Assembly (NCBI GenBank): GCA_018398585.1
Contig: JAGTTD010000018.1
Coordinates: 7,819,501 to 7,883,500, forward strand
DNA length: 64,000 nt
Reading direction: 5' to 3'
DNA from: Simmondsia chinensis
Lineage: Eukaryota > Streptophyta > Magnoliopsida > Caryophyllales > Simmondsiaceae
Shown piece by piece: positions 891 through 57,348 of the stretch (positions within the stretch are counted from its first letter, which is position 1; every line of letters starts with the position of its first letter). Position numbers and translations under genes: made by a program. A model generated the notes under the pieces. It did not search any database, was not told the origin of the DNA, and saw nothing but the letters and a program-made list of their open reading frames with translations.

Positions 891-1106
891 GGACTAGTTA
901 TTACAAAGGTTCATATACTTTATCCATCGTATCAATTTAATCCTTGTACTTTTAATTGTGTCAATTTAGTCCCTGTATAATTCAAAATGTGTCAATTTAG
1001 TCCTTAGAAAAAAATTTATGTTAATTTTTTAATGAAATTTTTAATGGTTCGGCCACAAATTGGGTTAAATTGAGTAAATATATGAATTTATAATAAGTTA
1101 CTTGTA

Positions 1107-1359
1107 CAACAACAACAACAGACCCAATGCCTCAAGGGCTCCTGCATAAGCGGGGTCTGGGAGGGGTGGATGTATGCAGCCTTACCCCTTCAGAGTATAA
1201 CTTTGCTAAGAGGTTGTTTCAGAGGACCTCCAACCTTATAGTGTTGGCAATACAAGGACTTCTCAGGAGGTCACTCATCATGGTACTACTCTCGCCCAAG
1301 CACGCTTAACTTCGGAGTTCTAACGGGATCCGATGCCTTAGTGCCTGATAAATGAACCC
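1107..1359 (-). mobile_element. SINE with a 5S rRNA-derived head and (TTG)n tail
   Basis: A perfect 19-bp direct repeat, ttataataagttacttgta, flanks the unit at 1088-1106 and 1360-1378, as expected for LINE-assisted retroposition. Read on the minus strand, the element begins with an essentially full-length 5S rRNA sequence (1359 to 1241), continues into a body of about 130 bp with the landmarks ctgcatacatccacccctcc and gaaacaacctc, and ends in four to five TTG units next to the duplication. The same body, with a different 5' part, occurs at 3233-3433. Plant SINEs normally carry a tRNA-related pol III head; here it is 5S. There is no TG..CA border, so this is not a Cassandra-type LTR element. 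No protein is encoded. Confidence 0.85.
1241..1359 (-). pseudogene. 5S rRNA sequence serving as the SINE head
   Basis: The complement of this stretch aligns with plant 5S rRNA from its 5' end to near its 3' end. The internal control region is best preserved: agttaagcgtgcttgggcga is identical to the canonical A-box region, and the C-box region reads gatgagtgacctcctgagaa, two changes from canonical. The first 15 or so bases and the last dozen are more diverged. Because it lies inside a retroposed unit, away from any 5S array, I treat it as a promoter-bearing SINE head rather than a functional rRNA gene. Identity was judged by eye. Confidence 0.9.
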
Positions 1360-1558
1360 TTATAATAAGTTACTTGTATCTAACATAATTTTACCATTCA
1401 AAATTACTTCATTAACATAGCTTAAATTTGACCAAAGGACTAAATTGACACATTTTGAATTATTCAGAGACTCAATTGACACAATTAAAAGTACAAGGAC
1501 CAAATTGACACAATGGGCAAAGTACAAAGACCTTTGGTGTAAATAATCCCAATTTAAA

Positions 1559-3232: not shown

Positions 3233-3390
3233 ACAACAACAACAACAACAAGCCCAGTGCTACCAAGGGCTCCCGCCAAAAGTAGGGTTTGGGGAGGGTA
3301 GATGTACGCAGTCTTCCCCCTTCAGGGGGTTACCCTGAAGAGAGGCTGTTTCCTAGGACCCCCAGCCTAAGATCATAGTCTTGCATCCAT

Positions 3391-3433
<43 letters not shown>
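3233..3433 (-). mobile_element. SINE sharing the body of the 5S-headed SINE, with a 37-bp poly(A/T) tract
   Basis: A 13-bp duplication (tccaattgaatca) flanks the unit at 3220-3232 and 3434-3446. On the minus strand the body carries ggaaacagcctct, a ctgcgtacatctaccctccc block and a tail of about seven TTG units, collinear with the body at 1107-1240. Its 5' part (3372-3394) is not 5S and keeps no clear pol III B box, so the tRNA-type head is truncated or decayed. A run of 37 A on the plus strand (3395-3431) lies at the minus-strand 5' end. If the element were instead read on the plus strand that run would be a poly(A) tail; the TTG tail shared with the other copy favours minus. Confidence 0.72.
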
Positions 3434-3435
<2 letters not shown>

Positions 3436-4497
3436 CAATTGAATCATCCACCTAAATAGTTATCATAAAAAACTACTCCATATTGCATAGGTAACTAATC
3501 TTTGCAAAAATTCCCACTAAATTGGTAGTTTTTTTATCCTAAAATTTTTGAATATTATGGGAGTTAATTTTTTTTCTTTTTTCTTTTAAGAAAATACTTA
3601 ACAACTACTAGGTTTTTAGAATTACTGAATTCTATGGTTCATAATTTTTTGGGGAGGGCAGAAACTTCAAAATAATAATATAGACATATTTGTCTTTCTA
3701 CTAATCAAGGTTCTTATAGTCTCTATTTCAGAACTATAGTGAGCAGATCTTTTATTTGTACTTACTAAACTTCTTGATTATAAAGAATTAAAGTTAGATA
3801 ATAAAAATGTAGGATTTATTATGCATTATTATTTGCTATATAGATTTACAAATGAATGTTACCTTGACACATTGTGGTTCGAGATCAGGATAGAACTAGA
3901 GAGGGGATCACTAGTTGCTTATAACAACACCTTTCTTCGAGTCCGGTGGTGGTGCCTTGTAAGAGAAAATGTGGCTGAGTTAATTAAAAATATAGGTACT
4001 TAGTATACTACACATGAAAATATGAGTCAATTAAACTAATAATATAATATAAATTTTAATTTGTAAATAAGTTTAGTTAATAGGAAAATACATTTGGAAC
4101 ACCATCAACAAATTTAAAACCATTTTTAAGAGAGAATAAATTTTTGTGTCTATACCTGATTTTGTCTTTCTGACATACAATGTCCTCCACTGCTTCGCAA
4201 TTATAGCAATGATCACTCTGTCATTAAGATTAAGCAATGAAAAAGTGGAAAAATAGTTTTGAGTGAGAGGGAGATAGAGAGAGATTAGGAAGAGATAAAT
4301 TATAATAATGGGTGGTTATTGAAATGGCGATTTTATTTTTCTTTATAAACATAAAAATAATTAAAAGAGAAAAATAGGGGAAAGTGGGAGGTGAGAGGTA
4401 GATACCCATAACCAACCTAATTTTTTTTTTTTTTTTGGTTTCTTTAGAATTTTAGGATTTGTTACTTGAAGCCTTTATAGAGAAGGAGGAACTTCTC

Positions 4498-9169: not shown

Positions 9170-10330
9170 TTCTCTCTTTGGCACCATCGCTTGGGCCATC
9201 TAGGAGAACCAGTTTTGTCCACTTTAGTTAAGCAAAAGTTTATTTTTTGTTCTAGTTCTTCATAATCCAGTTTGTGTCATGCTTGCCAACTAGGCAAGCA
9301 TAGTCATTTGCTTTTTCAAAAGTCTATAACCAATACTACGTGTCCTTTTGATATTGCTCATTCCGATGTATGGACATCACCTGTTCTTAGTTTCAGTGAT
9401 TTGAAGTATTATTTGTTATTATTGGATGATTACTCTCATTTTGTGTGAATTTATATTATGCGTGCCAAATCTGAGGTTTTTGACATGTTTGTTCAGTTTC
9501 GTAATCTTGTGTTGAATCAATTTGGTGTGGAAATCAAACGTTTTCAATGTGATAAAGGTACTGAATATATCAACCATGACTTTAATGGACTTTTTCTGCA
9601 AAGGTGCTTTCTCAATAGGGACTCTTGCCCTCATACATCCCAACATAATGGAAAAGTTGAACGCATGAACCGCACCATTGGTAACATGATGCGTTCCCTC
9701 TTGTTCCAAGCTTGTATGCCATTAGAAAGTTGGGTTGAAGCAGTTTCTATTGTAGCTCACATTATCAACCTACTACCATCCACTTCCATCAAGAAAAAGA
9801 TCCCTTTTCAACGTCTATATAAGAAGAAAGTTAATTATGATCACCTTTGGGTCTTCGGCAATGCCTGCTATCCAAATCTAAGTGCAAACACTTCACATAA
9901 GCTTGTTCCGCCCTCTACTTTATGTGTTTTCTTGGGTTATCCACCAAGTCATAAAGGTTATAAATGTTTGGATCTTTCTACTAATAAAGTCATTATTTTG
10001 AGGCATGTTGTTTTTGATGAAGCAGACTTTCCTTTTGCACCGGTTGGGAACCTTTTCTCAAGCTATAATGAACCGTCTTCACCACACCTTTTCCCCGCCA
10101 CTAGCATCATCACCGTTCGCCAGCTTTCCGCCACCGCAGCCGCCCCTCACAGCTACACCTGCCGCAGCGTCTCCTGCCCCTACCGAATAGCCTACGGTTC
10201 CACCCGAGGCACCCACTCCTCCCCCTGCCCGGTCTTCGATTCCTCCTGCTTCCTCTATTCATCTCATGGTAACTCGTGCCTGAGCTGGTATTGTGAAACC
10301 TTTTCTGAAACCTTTTATAATTGCTCATAA
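9170..10330 (+). pseudogene. Copia-1 integrase with GAG-pre-integrase zinc region
   Basis: The zinc-binding region begins near 9177 (HHRLGHLGEP) and includes CHACQLGKH, giving the HHCC pattern of copia integrases, with a TAA between the pairs. The catalytic core has its first Asp in AHSDVW, its second in FQCDKGTEY and its Glu in GKVERMNRTIG, so the DDE triad is readable. The C-terminal part runs through VFGNACYPNL, VFLGYPPSHKGYKCLD and HVVFDEADFPF, typical of copia, into a Ser/Pro/Ala-rich linker ending about 10330. Stops and a frame change upstream of 9458 disable it. It would insert the cDNA into the genome. Confidence 0.85.
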
Positions 10331-13839: not shown

Positions 13840-14691
13840 TCAACTATCTCTCAAATTGGACTGAGGTTCAGACACAGACAATAGAAGATCTTCATTCTCA
13901 CCATCCACAACACTAGCTACTATAGATCTCTGGTCAGACTTATTATCTACTTCAAGTTTTCTTTTAAGCTTGTAACAGTCTTTCTTAATGTGCCCTTTCT
14001 TATGACTGTAGTTACAGGTTAGGTCTTGATACCTAGACTTAAACTTGTTTCCACAATAATCATACTCAGTTCTCCCCCTCACAAATAAACCACTACCTGA
14101 GTTATAAACAGAATCAGATAATTCTCTGTCTACTCGTTCTTTACTTAGTAGGTTTCTCTTAACTTCATAAACAGATATGGTTTGTCTACCACCATAAATC
14201 ATGCTTTCAACAAAACCCTTATATGAAGCAGAGAGAGAATATAACAACAACATTGCCCGATCTTCATCCTTAGGAACATCGTCCAATTCTTTCAAAACTT
14301 GAACAATTGAATTAAATTCATTGACGTGATTCTTAAGTGACGTACCTTCTGACATATGAAACGTGAATAACCGGGGCTTAACTGCGAGTTTGTTGGAGAC
14401 AGACTTGAAACCGAACATATCCTGCAATTTCTCCGACAACTCCTTAGCGGTCTTCACTTCCAAAATTTCTGTCAAAACGTTATCGGTAAGACACATCTGA
14501 ATTGCTGTGAGCGCCTTCTCATCTAACTCCTCCCATTGTACTTCTGTCAAATTCTCTGGTTTCTTCTCTTTTCCATCTAAAGCTTTCTTCAAGCCACTCT
14601 GAGTCAAGAGGCCCTTAACGCGAACCTGCCATAAGCTAAAGCTCCCCTGACCACCAAACTTCTCAACCTCGGTCTTAATTGTGGACGTCAT
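13840..14691 (-). CDS. gag: copia gag of the non-autonomous derivative
   Basis: A 283-codon frame starts MTSTIKTEVEKFGGQGSFSL and shows the copia gag series: W-V-R-KGLL near residues 22-28, ALTAIQMCLTDNVL, LSEKLQDMFGFKSVSNKLAV, TFHMSEGTSLKNHVNEFNSI and LLLYSLSASYKGFVESMIYG. Near residue 230 the zinc knuckle reads C-NY-S-HKKG-H-IKKD-C, so the second Cys of CCHC has become Ser. The frame ends at a TGA immediately before the protease active site; one G-to-A change would explain it. This is the longest intact gag frame in the window and probably the component the element relies on for particle formation. UBN2-type gag by family. Confidence 0.88.
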   Translation of the reverse strand: MTSTIKTEVEKFGGQGSFSLWQVRVKGLLTQSGLKKALDGKEKKPENLTEVQWEELDEKALTAIQMCLTDNVLTEILEVKTAKELSEKLQDMFGFKSVSNKLAVKPRLFTFHMSEGTSLKNHVNEFNSIVQVLKELDDVPKDEDRAMLLLYSLSASYKGFVESMIYGGRQTISVYEVKRNLLSKERVDRELSDSVYNSGSGLFVRGRTEYDYCGNKFKSRYQDLTCNYSHKKGHIKKDCYKLKRKLEVDNKSDQRSIVASVVDGENEDLLLSVSEPQSNLRDS

Positions 14692-25600: not shown

Positions 25601-26377
25601 CTACTCCCACTTTAAGTCCTTCTTAAACTTAAGCTTCAGCAGCGGAGAGAAGACCTTGGTTTTTCCTATGACATTCGATATAAAACGTCTTAGGAAGTTA
25701 ACCTGCCTCAAGAAGCGTTGAAGCTCCTTTTTACTTGAAGGCGGCTTGGCCATTTGGATAGCCTTATTCTTATTAATATCCATCTTGATGCCCCTTTGGT
25801 GTACTAGAAAACCCATAAAGTTTCCAGCTGGCACGCCAACAGCACATTTCAATGGATTCATCTTAAGGTTGTGAGCCCTCATTCTAAGGACCGCACTCCT
25901 CAAGTCTTCCAAGTGTTTAACTTGGGATTTTGATTTGACCATGATATCATCTATATAGACTTCCATGGTCTTGCCAATGAGGTCATGAAAAATCATGTTC
26001 ATAGCTCTTTGGTAGGTGGCACCAACATTTTTCAAACCAAAGGGTATAGCCACCCATTCAAACGTCCCTATTGACCCCGGACATCTGAATGTTGTCTTGT
26101 GGGAATCCTTCGCGGCAATCATGAATTGGTAATACCCACAGTAGTCATCCATGAAGGACAAAATCTCATGCCTCGAGTTTGAATCAATGAGCACATCCGC
26201 AATAGGCATAAGGTATTCATCCTTTGGGGTGGCTGCATTCAGATCTCTGAAATTATTACAAACCCCGATCTTGCTATTCTTTTTAATGACAAGGACGGCA
26301 TTAGCCAGCCACTCAACATACCTAGCAATTCTAATGAACTTGGCCTTTAGGAATCTTTCAATTTCTTGCTTGACCAA
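25601..26377 (-). pseudogene. Gypsy-1 reverse transcriptase
   Basis: A 258-codon open segment with all gypsy RT blocks: EIERFLKAKFIRIARYVEWL, KIGVCNNFRDLNAATPKDEY, ILSFMDDYCGYYQFMIAA, VAIPFGLKNVGATYQRAMN, EVYIDDIMVKS and NFMGFLVHQRGIKMDINK. The YIDD active site is intact, making this the best preserved Gypsy-1 domain. Usual Asp/Ala positions in the PMPFGL block read AIPFGL. It is cut off from protease and RNase H by frameshifts. Confidence 0.9.
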
Positions 26378-41349: not shown

Positions 41350-44300
41350 TGAGTCACGCACAACACCTTGAGATTGAAAGGACAAATCAAGAAACGGGAG
41401 GTAAACATCTTGATCGATAGTGGGTCTACAAACAGTCTCCTTGATGCTAGAGTAGTTCGGGAGCTATAACTCGAAACTGTGCCAACCGTTGTAATGACCG
41501 TGACGGTGGCTAACGGGGAGAGCCTTGTTAGCTATCAAAAATGCCCGGGCGTGAGGTGGAAGGTCCAAGGCACAACGTTCGTTGATGACCTGAGGGTACT
41601 TGAACTCCGAGGCAGTGACATGGTCCTTGGGGTGGATTGGCTCCAACGCTATGGACCCGTGACGTTCGACTTCACCAACCTCAAGTTCGCATGCTTCAAG
41701 GAGGGCAAAACAGTTCGGTTGCAAGGCACATCCGAAAGAGCTTCCTTGCAATCCATTTCGGGTAAGGGCGTAACCAAGTTCCTTAAGAAGGCTGGACATG
41801 TGATGGATCACCTCTTTATGGCGATCGCCGTGGAGGTTCCCAATTCCATTACCCATCCGGAGATCGAACGCATCCTTAACCGGTACCAAGATGTTTTTGA
41901 TGAGCCGAGGACCCTTCCTCCTCCTCGCTCACATGACCACCACATTCCAACCTTACCCGATGCCAAGCCTGTGAACATAAGGCCCTACCGGTACCCACAC
42001 GGGCAAAAGAACGAGATTGAAAAGCAAGTCAAGGAAATGTTAGAGGCCTCCATAATCCAACCAAGTCGCAGCCCGTTTGCCTCCCCGGTACTTTTGGTCC
42101 GAAAGAAAGATGGGTCTTACCGTTTTTGTGTGGACTACCGACAATGAAACAACATAACCTTAAAGGATAAATTTCCGATAGCGGTCATTGATGATTTGCT
42201 CGATGAACTCAAGGGTTCTTCCATCTTCTCCAAGATCGATCTCTGAGCCGGCTATCATCAAATCCGAGTGTGTGAAGAAGATCAACATAAGACCGCCTTC
42301 CGGACTCACCAAGGGCATTACAAGTTCCGTGTCATGCCCTTCGGGCTCACTAATGCCCCCGCTTCCTTCTTAGCCATGATGAACGAGGTCTTTGAGCCGT
42401 ATCTCCGCAAGTTCGTACTCGTGTTCTTCGACTACATCTTGGTCTACAGCCCGGACCTCTCCGAACATCTTAGACACTTGACCAAGGTGCTTGAAACCTT
42501 GCACATGCATCGCCTCTATGCCAAGCGGAGCAAGTGCACCTTCGGCCAAGACCGGGTTGAATACTTGGGACACGTGAACTCAAGGGAAGGGGTTGCAACA
42601 GACGAAGGCAAGATCGAGGCAATGAAGAAGTGGCCGAGACCGAAGAATATCAAGAGCCTTCGAGGGTTCTTGGGGCTCACCGGGTACTATCGAAAATTTG
42701 TTCGCTGGTATGGTACCTTGAGCAAGCCATTAACCAACCTCCTCAAAGGGGGGGAATTTCATTGGAATGAAGAAACCGAACGAGCATTTGAGGCCTTGAA
42801 AGAGGCCATGACGATAGCACCGGTCCTTGCGCTCCCCGACTTCTCCAAGCCCTTTGTCCTTGAAACCGATGCTTGCGGAGTGGGAATAGGTGCGGTCCTC
42901 TCACAAGACGGCCGACCCCTTGCCTATCTCAGCAAGGCCCTGAGCCCACGCCATCTTGGGCTTTCGGTCTACGAGAAGGAACTTCTTGCGGTACTCATGA
43001 CCGTGGAAAAATGGAGACATTATCTTATGGACCACCACTTCATCATCAAGACCGACCTCGCAAGCCTCCATCACCTACTTGAGCAAAGAATTACCACACA
43101 GTTGCAGCTCAAGGGGATGTCAAAAATGATGGGCCTTCATTATTGCATTCTTTACCAAAAGGGAGCCGAAAACCGAGCCATGTATGCACTTTCGAGGCGT
43201 GATGAAGATGAAACTACCGCCACCTATGCCCTCATGACTACTTCGGTTCCTCTTTGGATGCACGAACTCGCCCATAGCTATGAGAACGAGGCTCCTACTG
43301 CCAAGGTGATAGAGCAACTTGTCCTTGATCCGACGAGCAACAAGCCTTATTCCTTTAAAGGGGGTCTTCTTCTATACAAGGGAAGACTTTACGCGGGAAA
43401 AGATGGAGGAATGAGAGACAAGGTCCTACAGGCACTTCATGACTCTCCTATGGGGGGTCACTCCGGATCCTTTGGCACCTTAATGAGGGTCAAACACTTG
43501 TTCTATTGGCCCAACCTCAAGAAGAGTGTTCGAGAATGGGTGGAGAAATATGATACTTGCCAACGCATCAAGCACGAGAATGTGGCCTGCCCAGGGCTCC
43601 TACAACCTCTACCCGTGCCCAATCAGGCATGGGAAAGCATCAGTATGGACTTCATCGAGGGGTTGCCCAAGGCCGGAGGTAAGGATGTCATTATGGTGAT
43701 CGTGGACAGATTTACCAAGTATGCTCACTTCATCACCCTGACTCATCCATACACTGCAAGCAAGGTGGCCCAATTATTCTTGGACCATGTAAGCCGACTC
43801 CATGGGTTGCCCAAGGATATCATTTCAGATCGGGATGCATCCTTCCAGAGCCTCTTTTGGAAGGAACTCATGCGCTTAGCCGGGATCAAGTTAAAAATGA
43901 GTAGTGCCTACCATCCGCAATCTGACGGGCAAACCGAGCGGGTTAATCAGTGCCTTGAGAGCTACTTCTGAGCCATGGCTCTCAACAAGCCGAAGCAGTG
44001 GTCCCAATGGCTTCCCTTGGCCGAATTTTGGTACAACACTCACTATCACTCTTCATTGAAGGGAACAACATTCCTTGCCCTCTACGGTTATGAGCCGAGG
44101 GTCCTCACACTTGACATCCCATGCATTTCCACATCCGGAGATGTGGAGGACTTCACCAACGAGAGGCAAAACTTAATCGGTTTACTAAAGGAGAACTTGA
44201 AGGAGGCACAGCAACGCTATAAACGACAAGCCGATCAACGAAGAACCGAGAGAACTTTTGAAGTGGGTGATTGGGTTTATCTGAAACTACAACCCTACAG

Positions 44301-55499: not shown

Positions 55500-57348
55500 A
55501 GATGTTTAAAGATGAGACGCATCACTGGTGAAGAAGCTCCTAGAGGAGATTTCTCCAATGGCATTCCGGTGAAACTCCAGGTATTCCCGGGGATCTCTTG
55601 AGTAGATGAAGCTACAAAGAAAATAGTAGAGGTTAGCCTTTGTTCAAGCCATTTGAAGAAAAATTCCAAAGCTTTAGAGATGGCTGTTTACCTGGTAGTG
55701 CTTTCTTTAGAGTTTGTCTTACTTTGACTGGTTGGGCTCCTCTTGAGTTAGGACTTGCACATCTACAAGCTCAAGGGAAGGCGCTAAATACTGCTTGGCT
55801 CCTGGTCTTTAAAGAGGACCAATAGGCTTATAACTAAGCTGAGAAACGAGGTGTGACACACGGGGCATACCTACAAGGAACATGGTACCCATAGGTTGAA
55901 TTAACCTCTAAGTTGGACTCATAGCGCTCTTTATACTAAGGGAGCTGAATAGAGATCCTCTTGACCCACCATAGGTTCTTGGTCCTTAGGCTTGGAAAAT
56001 GAATGTCCTAGACCATTCCAAATTACCTAGCAAACAATTGAGGCCTATAAGTCTCTACACCAGGTTGGGTCTGGTGGTAGAAGAAGAGATCTTGGGGGCA
56101 CAAGATTGTCTACCAGACTGGAGCATTGCTGTCTACTGGGACATTATAGTGGAAGTCCAGTTTCTTGGATGAACAGGGACCAAGTTTCCTCTCCTCGAAG
56201 GGAGTCCATCGGATCCCTGACCTACCTCAAGGAGACATAAGCTTCTCAGGGCATCGGTCAAAAGACCATCCTAGTGGTAAGAGAACCTCTCTACTAGCAA
56301 ATTGCTTTCTATAATAGGTGATTCCATCATTTGTGGAGGCAAAGGGTCCTCTATAGCAGAACTTAAGCAAATAGGCTTGGACGCACGGTTGGATCAGCCA
56401 TAAGGGTGCTCCCAGCTAGACAGCATAGTTCTTAATTATGATGTCTTTGAGGGATCCATATACTTGGGCCAAGAATAATGGTCCTATAGCCAAAGGACCA
56501 ATACTAAAGGCCAGGTTTATTGCCAACATTTTAAGATATTTAAGCACAGTGTTGGCGGAGTTAACAAAGAAAAACTTGTTTAACCAAAACAAGTAAAAAG
56601 AAACCTCTTCTTCCTTGGACCCATGTCCATAGTTATGACTTTCTGTGACGAAAGCTTTAACCAAAGTTTCATAACTAGTGGGTAGGTTGGTCACAGAAAA
56701 AGAAGAGGCAAAGGTTTCAACCTTTTTAGAAATAAAAGAATCGAGAGGCAATTCATCTCCCCTTGGAGAAAGACCTATTAAGGCCACTATGCCCCTTAAG
56801 ATAATCCCTAGAAAGCCCTTGTGGAGGACAAAAGCATTATAAAAGATGTTCCAATAATAGGTGAGAGCTGTCATGATGGGATAATCATACCTAAGGGCAA
56901 TCTTGGAGAGCATGATAGTTTCATAGATACGGGGATTCCTCCATTCATCCTCATAGACGAGAGTGAAGCGATCTACCCATTCAGCGTATATCTTGGTCAA
57001 GAATGTCCACCCTTTGAAGGGGGCAGCTTCTCTAATGACGCGTCTTCCTCCTAAAGAATGACCTGTAGAAACTTTGCCAAGTAAAAGAGACTTGTCAGTA
57101 TCAGGGAACACACCCTTCAGGTTGGGGACGTCAAAAGAAGGGTCAAAGATGGGCCCTAGGGCATATGGTTCATGGATCGAAGAGGGATCATTCTCAAGAA
57201 AGATCTCCTTGATGGTACCAAGGTCAGTAGGGCTCTAAAGCCTATCAGAGACCATTGAAACGTCTAATTAAACCAGACATGCCAACTGCTCTATAGGGCT
57301 ATCAACATGAGGGATGGTGGCAGAAACAACGTAGGAGATTTGAGCCAT
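55500..57348 (-). pseudogene. antisense PMD gene of the second Tat element
   Basis: The start ATG at 57348 gives MAQISYVVSATIPHVDSPIE, parallel to the Gypsy-1 copy, and an in-frame TAG again falls at codon 38 (57235-57237); codon 30 or so carries a further stop. The best frame (56416-57111, 231 codons) holds EAAPFKGWTFLTKIYAEWVD, RIYETIMLSKIALRYDYPIM, FVLHKGFLGIILRGIVALIG, VSFYLFWLNKFFFVNSANTV and SIGPLAIGPLFLAQVYGSLK, a nearly complete plant mobile domain. Downstream (to about 55500) the reading is broken. It lies between integrase (missing here) and the 3' LTR, on the strand opposite to element transcription. Function in the element is unknown. Confidence 0.82.

Follow-up and report, generated by a model that had tools for sequence, protein, structure and literature searches.

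A multi-copy SINE family with a 5S rRNA-derived head and a LINE-derived 3' end in a plant genome

The genome of Simmondsia chinensis contains a multi-copy SINE family in which a head derived from 5S rRNA is joined to the 3'-terminal sequence of a LINE from this genome; the family is predicted to be transcribed by Pol III from the 5S internal promoter, and its copies were likely inserted by the reverse transcriptase of that LINE. We give this reading a probability of about 0.93. With a 5S 5' end, promoter boxes, dispersed copies flanked by target site duplications (TSDs) and a LINE 3' end, the family agrees in each of these features with the SINE3 elements of animals, and it is apparently the first such family in a plant. 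One full-length copy lies in the window, by which we mean the whole 64,000-nt stretch of DNA that was analysed (C10:7819501-7883500 of the host genome, which comprises 831,394,711 bases in 35 contigs). The named sequences closest to one gene come from Amaranthus (80%) and Carnegiea (79%), followed by Davidia and Carya (78% each), which points weakly to Caryophyllales. The features of this copy, and of a relative nearby, are collected in Table 1.

The element in the window

A sequence-only reading of the window had proposed a 5S rRNA head on the minus strand, and the Rfam 5S model, RF00001, bore this out with a match over the whole model (gathering threshold 38 bits; E-value of 2.5e-10 for the whole window and 2e-12 for the interval 1000-1500). 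No other Rfam family reached gathering level in the 64,000 nt, ARAGORN found no tRNA in the window, and in RNA folding the element, two tails and the family consensus did not rise above shuffles (z = -0.18, 0.01, 0.36 and -0.71). The perfect 19-bp target duplication and the TTG tail that had been described were also found, with the direct repeat lying flush with both ends of the element. A search for direct repeats across 1050-1420 returned nothing besides this TSD, and no LTRs. With the A box, intermediate element (IE) and C box placed as in 5S genes generally, the A box and the IE are identical to those of the host's own 5S genes (a minority of the host units read have one change in the A box); the two changes reported for the C box are confirmed when counted from the family consensus.

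The claim that the 5S sequence runs straight into the body stands in part: the head tracks 5S closely up to ...TTGC, after which ~9 nt of divergent sequence precede the LINE-derived part, whose start is at ~1237. The features of a functional 5S gene, a tandem array and a T-run terminator after the 3' end, are absent, and the window copy continues into the LINE tail. Against a reference 5S sequence, the window head carries 13 substitutions, only five of which are present in the family consensus. A first age argument contrasted these 13 changes with the perfection of the TSD and took them to mean that the source had already diverged (P about 0.03-0.1); comparison of the copies upheld that conclusion, but the reasoning was weak and the argument was set aside.

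Table 1. Coordinates of the 5S-headed element and a body-only relative in the window
Feature	Position	Strand	Remarks
Full-length copy, 5S-headed SINE family type 1	1107-1359	-	253 bp
5S rRNA-derived head	1242-1357	-	Rfam RF00001, 60.9 bits, model 1-120; 5' end of element at 1359
5S A box, unchanged	1297-1311	-	AGTTAAGCGTGCTTG in window copy, consensus and most host 5S units read
5S intermediate element (IE), unchanged	1289-1294	-	CGAGAG
5S C box	1264-1281	-	ATGATGAGTGACCTCCTG in window copy, AGGATGGGTGACCTCCTG in consensus; two changes
Body, LINE 3' end	1119-1237	-	Same sequence downstream of ORF match in 20 of 20 LINE loci
(TTG)4 tail	1107-1118	-	From the sequence; last 12 nt of element
Target site duplication, copy 1	1088-1106	.	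19 bp
Target site duplication, copy 2	1360-1378	.	19 bp, identical to copy 1
Body-only relative without 5S head	3236-3368	-	LINE 3' end or another SINE; own target duplication TGATTCAATTGGA

Copies, junction and decay of the family

We searched the host genome with the 253-bp unit and scored 40 of 7,635 first-look candidates. All 40 covered at least 250 of the 253 bases and they were spread over many contigs; the window copy matched its own query at 100%, and the other scored matches at 88-91%. From 30 loci we read 31 full-length copies, those most like the window copy, of which 24 begin with the bases GGGTTCATTT, with a one-base difference there in the other seven. TSDs were scored as length minus 3 per mismatch with a cut-off of at least 8, and by this measure 22 of the 31 copies are flanked by duplications (10-21 bp, 0-3 mismatches) whose sequences differ from copy to copy. 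Several of these 22 have 1-3 mismatches, and nine copies have no convincing TSD. As a control, the 5' flank of one copy was paired with the 3' flank of another, which gave a duplication in three of 93 pairings. LTR elements make TSDs of ~5 bp, unlike those seen here.

The 21-nt head/body junction, TTGCCAACCCTATAAGGTTGG, was searched with up to 3 mismatches and returned 4,194 + 4,002 = 8,196 matches in the genome, against 3 + 3 for a control pattern; the total is a count of matches to the junction pattern. In 340 kb sampled (some loci overlap), all 41 junction matches sit in copies with both the 5S part and the body, and the Rfam 5S model matched one copy at each of four further loci, at 55-75 bits. 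Five random stretches totalling 50 kb, drawn from the 17 of 35 contigs whose length was known, contained one 5S-headed copy (of the second type described below) and two body-only pieces, too few for an estimate of abundance. The sequence-only reading had left two options, a one-off chimera and a member of a 5S-driven SINE family; because the unit recurs in the genome search, the junction has 8,196 matches and the target duplications differ, we take it to be a family, which likely has thousands of copies. Patterns for plant 5S, for the head-body pair and for the body had no match in viral and prokaryote collections.

The consensus of the 31 copies is 253 nt long, and individual copies depart from it by 1.6-8.3%, the window copy being the most diverged at 8.3%. 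Because the 31 are the best matches to the window copy, the consensus and these divergences are biased towards its subgroup and do not give an unbiased age profile. The consensus head keeps the A box, the IE and a canonical C box. C>T or G>A changes make up 319 of 426 substitutions, and sites in the promoter boxes are substituted at 3.8-6.8%, those in the rest of the head at 4.9-5.4% and those in the body at 5.8%, a pattern that would be expected of methylated insertions decaying without selection. TTTT is absent from the 253-nt consensus, and a Pol III transcript could therefore read through it.

The LINE with the same 3' end, and body-only copies

One body-only copy is preceded by an ORF that we took to be the C-terminus of a LINE. 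Pfam gave nothing above cut-off for this 232-aa piece, with which we searched the genome, scoring 150 of 17,612 first-look candidates. The best 20 LINE loci, among them the locus of the query, all have the SINE body 144-226 nt past the ORF match. TTG repeats are clear by eye in 16 of these loci, with decayed or related repeats in the other four, and two of the LINE ORFs contain RVT_1 (reverse transcriptase) at 116 and 102 bits. The LINE and SINE letters are common from (C)AGGTTGGGG / (C)AGGTTGGGGGTCC onward. What the sequence-only reading had called a SINE body is in fact the 3'-terminal part of a LINE found in this genome. The body may also resemble the conserved 3' segment (a 37-bp Angio-domain near the 3' end) that many plant SINEs, the Angio-SINEs of Seibt et al. 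2020, reportedly share.

The LINE probably belongs to the RTE clade, to judge from its TTG tail and from a parallel in tobacco and potato. A potato RTE LINE and the tobacco TS SINE have ~100 nt at the 3' end and TTG repeats in common, and (TTG)n or (TTGATG)n is the terminal repeat of the plant RTE LINEs that the same source tabulates (PMC3747384). The family described here resembles TS in sharing its 3' end with a LINE and in ending in TTG repeats, but it has a 5S head where TS has a tRNA head; more generally, the tRNA-derived head of plant SINEs of the TS or Au type is absent here.

Some copies of the body stand without a 5S head. The one in the window matches positions 124-253 of the 5S-headed element at 76% identity, its duplication scores 13, and no Rfam 5S match was found at 3236-3368. 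We had expected such copies to be simply 5'-truncated LINEs, but comparison with the LINE 3' UTRs collected here found similar sequence upstream of only 4 of 32 body-only copies near the SINEs, and a crude test found a tRNA-like A/B box pair upstream of none of the 32. Other LINE variants, or SINEs with the same body, may exist, since so few of the upstream sequences are LINE-like and none has tRNA-like boxes. TSD scores of at least 10 were obtained for 10 of 23 body-only copies tested (2 of 23 in the control). The alignment starts at element position 118-128 in 25 of the 32, which suggested a preferred 5' end at the junction; this idea was dropped, the 5' TSD ends being scattered between a point 93 nt ahead of the body start and one 12 nt past it.

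The copy at ~3236-3443 has an upstream segment, CTGATRGATGCAAGAC.AT.ATCTT, in common with a copy at another locus (L036), perhaps marking another SINE or LINE subfamily. A long T-run adjoins the target duplication of the ~3236-3443 copy.

Host 5S genes, origin of the family and related elements

The host's own 5S genes form arrays elsewhere, at about 6.41 Mb and 4.69 Mb of C8 (L044-L048). Of 565 candidates 40 were scored, 20 per array; the units stand in tandem at a spacing of mostly ~420-440 bp, and TTTTT follows the gene. The SINE consensus shares T39 with the host units and is identical to them at positions 25-78, which include the A box and the IE. Differences from both arrays lie at positions 5, 11, 24, 79, 81 and 95, with three indels in the first 16 nt, while positions 12 and 106 each differ from a single array; the last ~7 nt are also different. 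The C box in the units read from both host arrays is AAGATGGGTGACCTCTTG, two places off the canonical plant C box, which begins AGGATGGGTG (PMC10853983), and the C box of the SINE consensus begins with these canonical letters. Since the host C box is changed and that of the consensus is canonical, the type-1 head is not an exact mirror of today's host promoter, in contrast to Cassandra, whose 5S is reported to mirror the promoter of its host. The T39 common to the SINE and the host 5S units suggests, as a reading of the letters, that the head originated in the plant lineage, separately from animal SINE3.

Four more diverged copies (L012, L032, L033 and L043) form a second type, with a 5S core and a different 5' end and tail. 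They start with ACCTAAGAGGGTACCAACACGCAAGCACCGG or similar, three of the four have GGAATGTT near the end, and their target duplications are visible by eye. L012 and L032 carry a 5S 3' end, ...CCCT, that abuts CAGGTTGGGG, the LINE sequence. The C box of L012 and L033, AAGATGGGTGACCTCATG, is closer to that of the host than the type-1 box, and three of the four copies share C79 with type 1. A partial copy (L017, element 89-244) was kept out of the type-2 count, and a copy at L067 (element 21-253) was assigned to neither type.

The founder of the family could have arisen when the reverse transcriptase of a LINE left its LINE RNA template and continued on the 3' end of a 5S RNA, an origin that we infer because two of the four type-2 copies join ...CCCT directly to LINE sequence. 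Pol III is predicted to start at GGG (+1) by way of the 5S internal promoter, to read through the LINE-derived 3' end and to terminate where the flank offers a run of T. The transcript would then be recognised by the LINE enzyme through the ~130-nt 3' end in common together with the TTG repeats, and target-primed reverse transcription is predicted to insert the copy, leaving duplications of 10-21 bp.

For the origin alone, and compatibly with the rest of the reading, an older tRNA-headed SINE with the same body might have captured a 5S head. The moth SINE HaSE3 is explained in this way (PMC3272025), TS shows that a plant SINE sharing a TTG-tailed LINE end can have a tRNA head (PMC3747384), and the scarcity of LINE-like sequence upstream of the body-only copies fits; against this, the crude test found no tRNA-like boxes there, and past the junction the SINE already matches the LINE's own sequence. 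We consider such a swap rather unlikely, though it deserves to be taken seriously. That 5S RNA and LINE RNA were instead fused many times, giving copies that never replicated as a unit, might be entertained given that the genome has many copies of the 5S genes as well as of the LINE and that two 5S-headed types have different ends. However, the 31 type-1 copies have one 253-nt structure and one junction in common, their consensus departs from 5S at 5, 11, 24 and 79 and by the early indels, and C79 recurs in type 2; because separate fusions to a conserved 5S RNA would not give common departures, recurrent fusion is strongly disfavoured and very unlikely.

A one-off chimera, in which a LINE reverse transcriptase switched once from SINE or LINE RNA to 5S rRNA, has a precedent in the 5S/LINE-1 chimeras of human LINE-1, which resemble the present family in that 5S RNA is fused with the 3' end of a LINE and TSDs are frequent (PMC13174262). 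These mammalian chimeras are isolated events without a replicating family, and their 5S part is typically truncated and antisense, whereas the SINE head is near full length and sense. With 40 of 40 scored matches near full length and the junction recurring as often as it does, a single event is scarcely credible here. A fragment of Cassandra or of another 5S-bearing LTR element (TRIM), suggested by the 5S in the LTRs of plant Cassandra (PMC10853983), is practically untenable, as the sequence-only reading had already concluded, given the absence of LTRs around the unit, the TSD lengths and the presence of a LINE 3' end with a TTG tail.

As a 5S-headed SINE family, the elements can be set beside animal SINE3 (zebrafish SINE3, AmnSINE1, the fruit bat and springhare SINEs, and HaSE3 of Helicoverpa). 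They are alike in having a 5S-derived head, internal Pol III promoter boxes, a LINE-derived 3' end, TSDs and many copies, and differ in that the host here is a flowering plant whose own LINE supplied the body and tail. A 5S head with an RTE-type tail is also found in springhare Ped-1, where the tail is BovB (PMC3747384), and in moth HaSE3 (PMC7245038). In the literature consulted, which also included PMC8825457, PMC11490119, PMC13295347 and PMC8010984, SINEs with a 5S head occur in vertebrates and insects (PMC7245038) and in a fungus (PMC5063351), and plant SINEs are termed tRNA-derived by a plant review that cites the Angio-SINE paper (PMC9033089). The open-licence papers searched yielded no plant 5S-headed SINE; a record in a database such as Repbase may nonetheless exist.

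The family, with its thousands of junction matches, shows that a SINE using a 5S sequence has arisen in a plant as well, apart from Cassandra. The latter is likewise a plant mobile element with a 5S promoter, but it is an LTR element that carries the 5S in mid-LTR (PMC10853983) and has a different integration mechanism. Its promoter has been speculated to derive from a SINE3 inserted in an LTR (PMC10886601), and this idea becomes testable; no plant SINE3 is named in the literature surveyed. It is possible, if on balance doubtful, that flowering plants have a 5S-driven SINE class of their own, separate from animal SINE3 and with at least two types in this genome, whose older members were the missing 5S-SINE donors of Cassandra; such a class would have begun when 5S RNA became fused with a LINE that ends in TTG repeats. 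One genome here offers a matched set of true 5S arrays, two 5S-headed SINE types and a LINE with a common tail, and because the host C box has changed while that of type 1 is canonical, promoter and parasite can be compared as they have been for Cassandra.

Elsewhere in the window, two inverted arms (881-1048 and 1393-1562, ~79% identical) enclose the SINE and may be read as a foldback or MITE-like element with the SINE inserted in its loop. LTR retrotransposon ORFs with SH3-like, gag_2, RVT_1 and integrase domains lie at 9458-10330, 13840-14691, 25601-26377 and 42268-43971, and a plant mobile domain (PF10536) lies at 56416-57111 on the minus strand.
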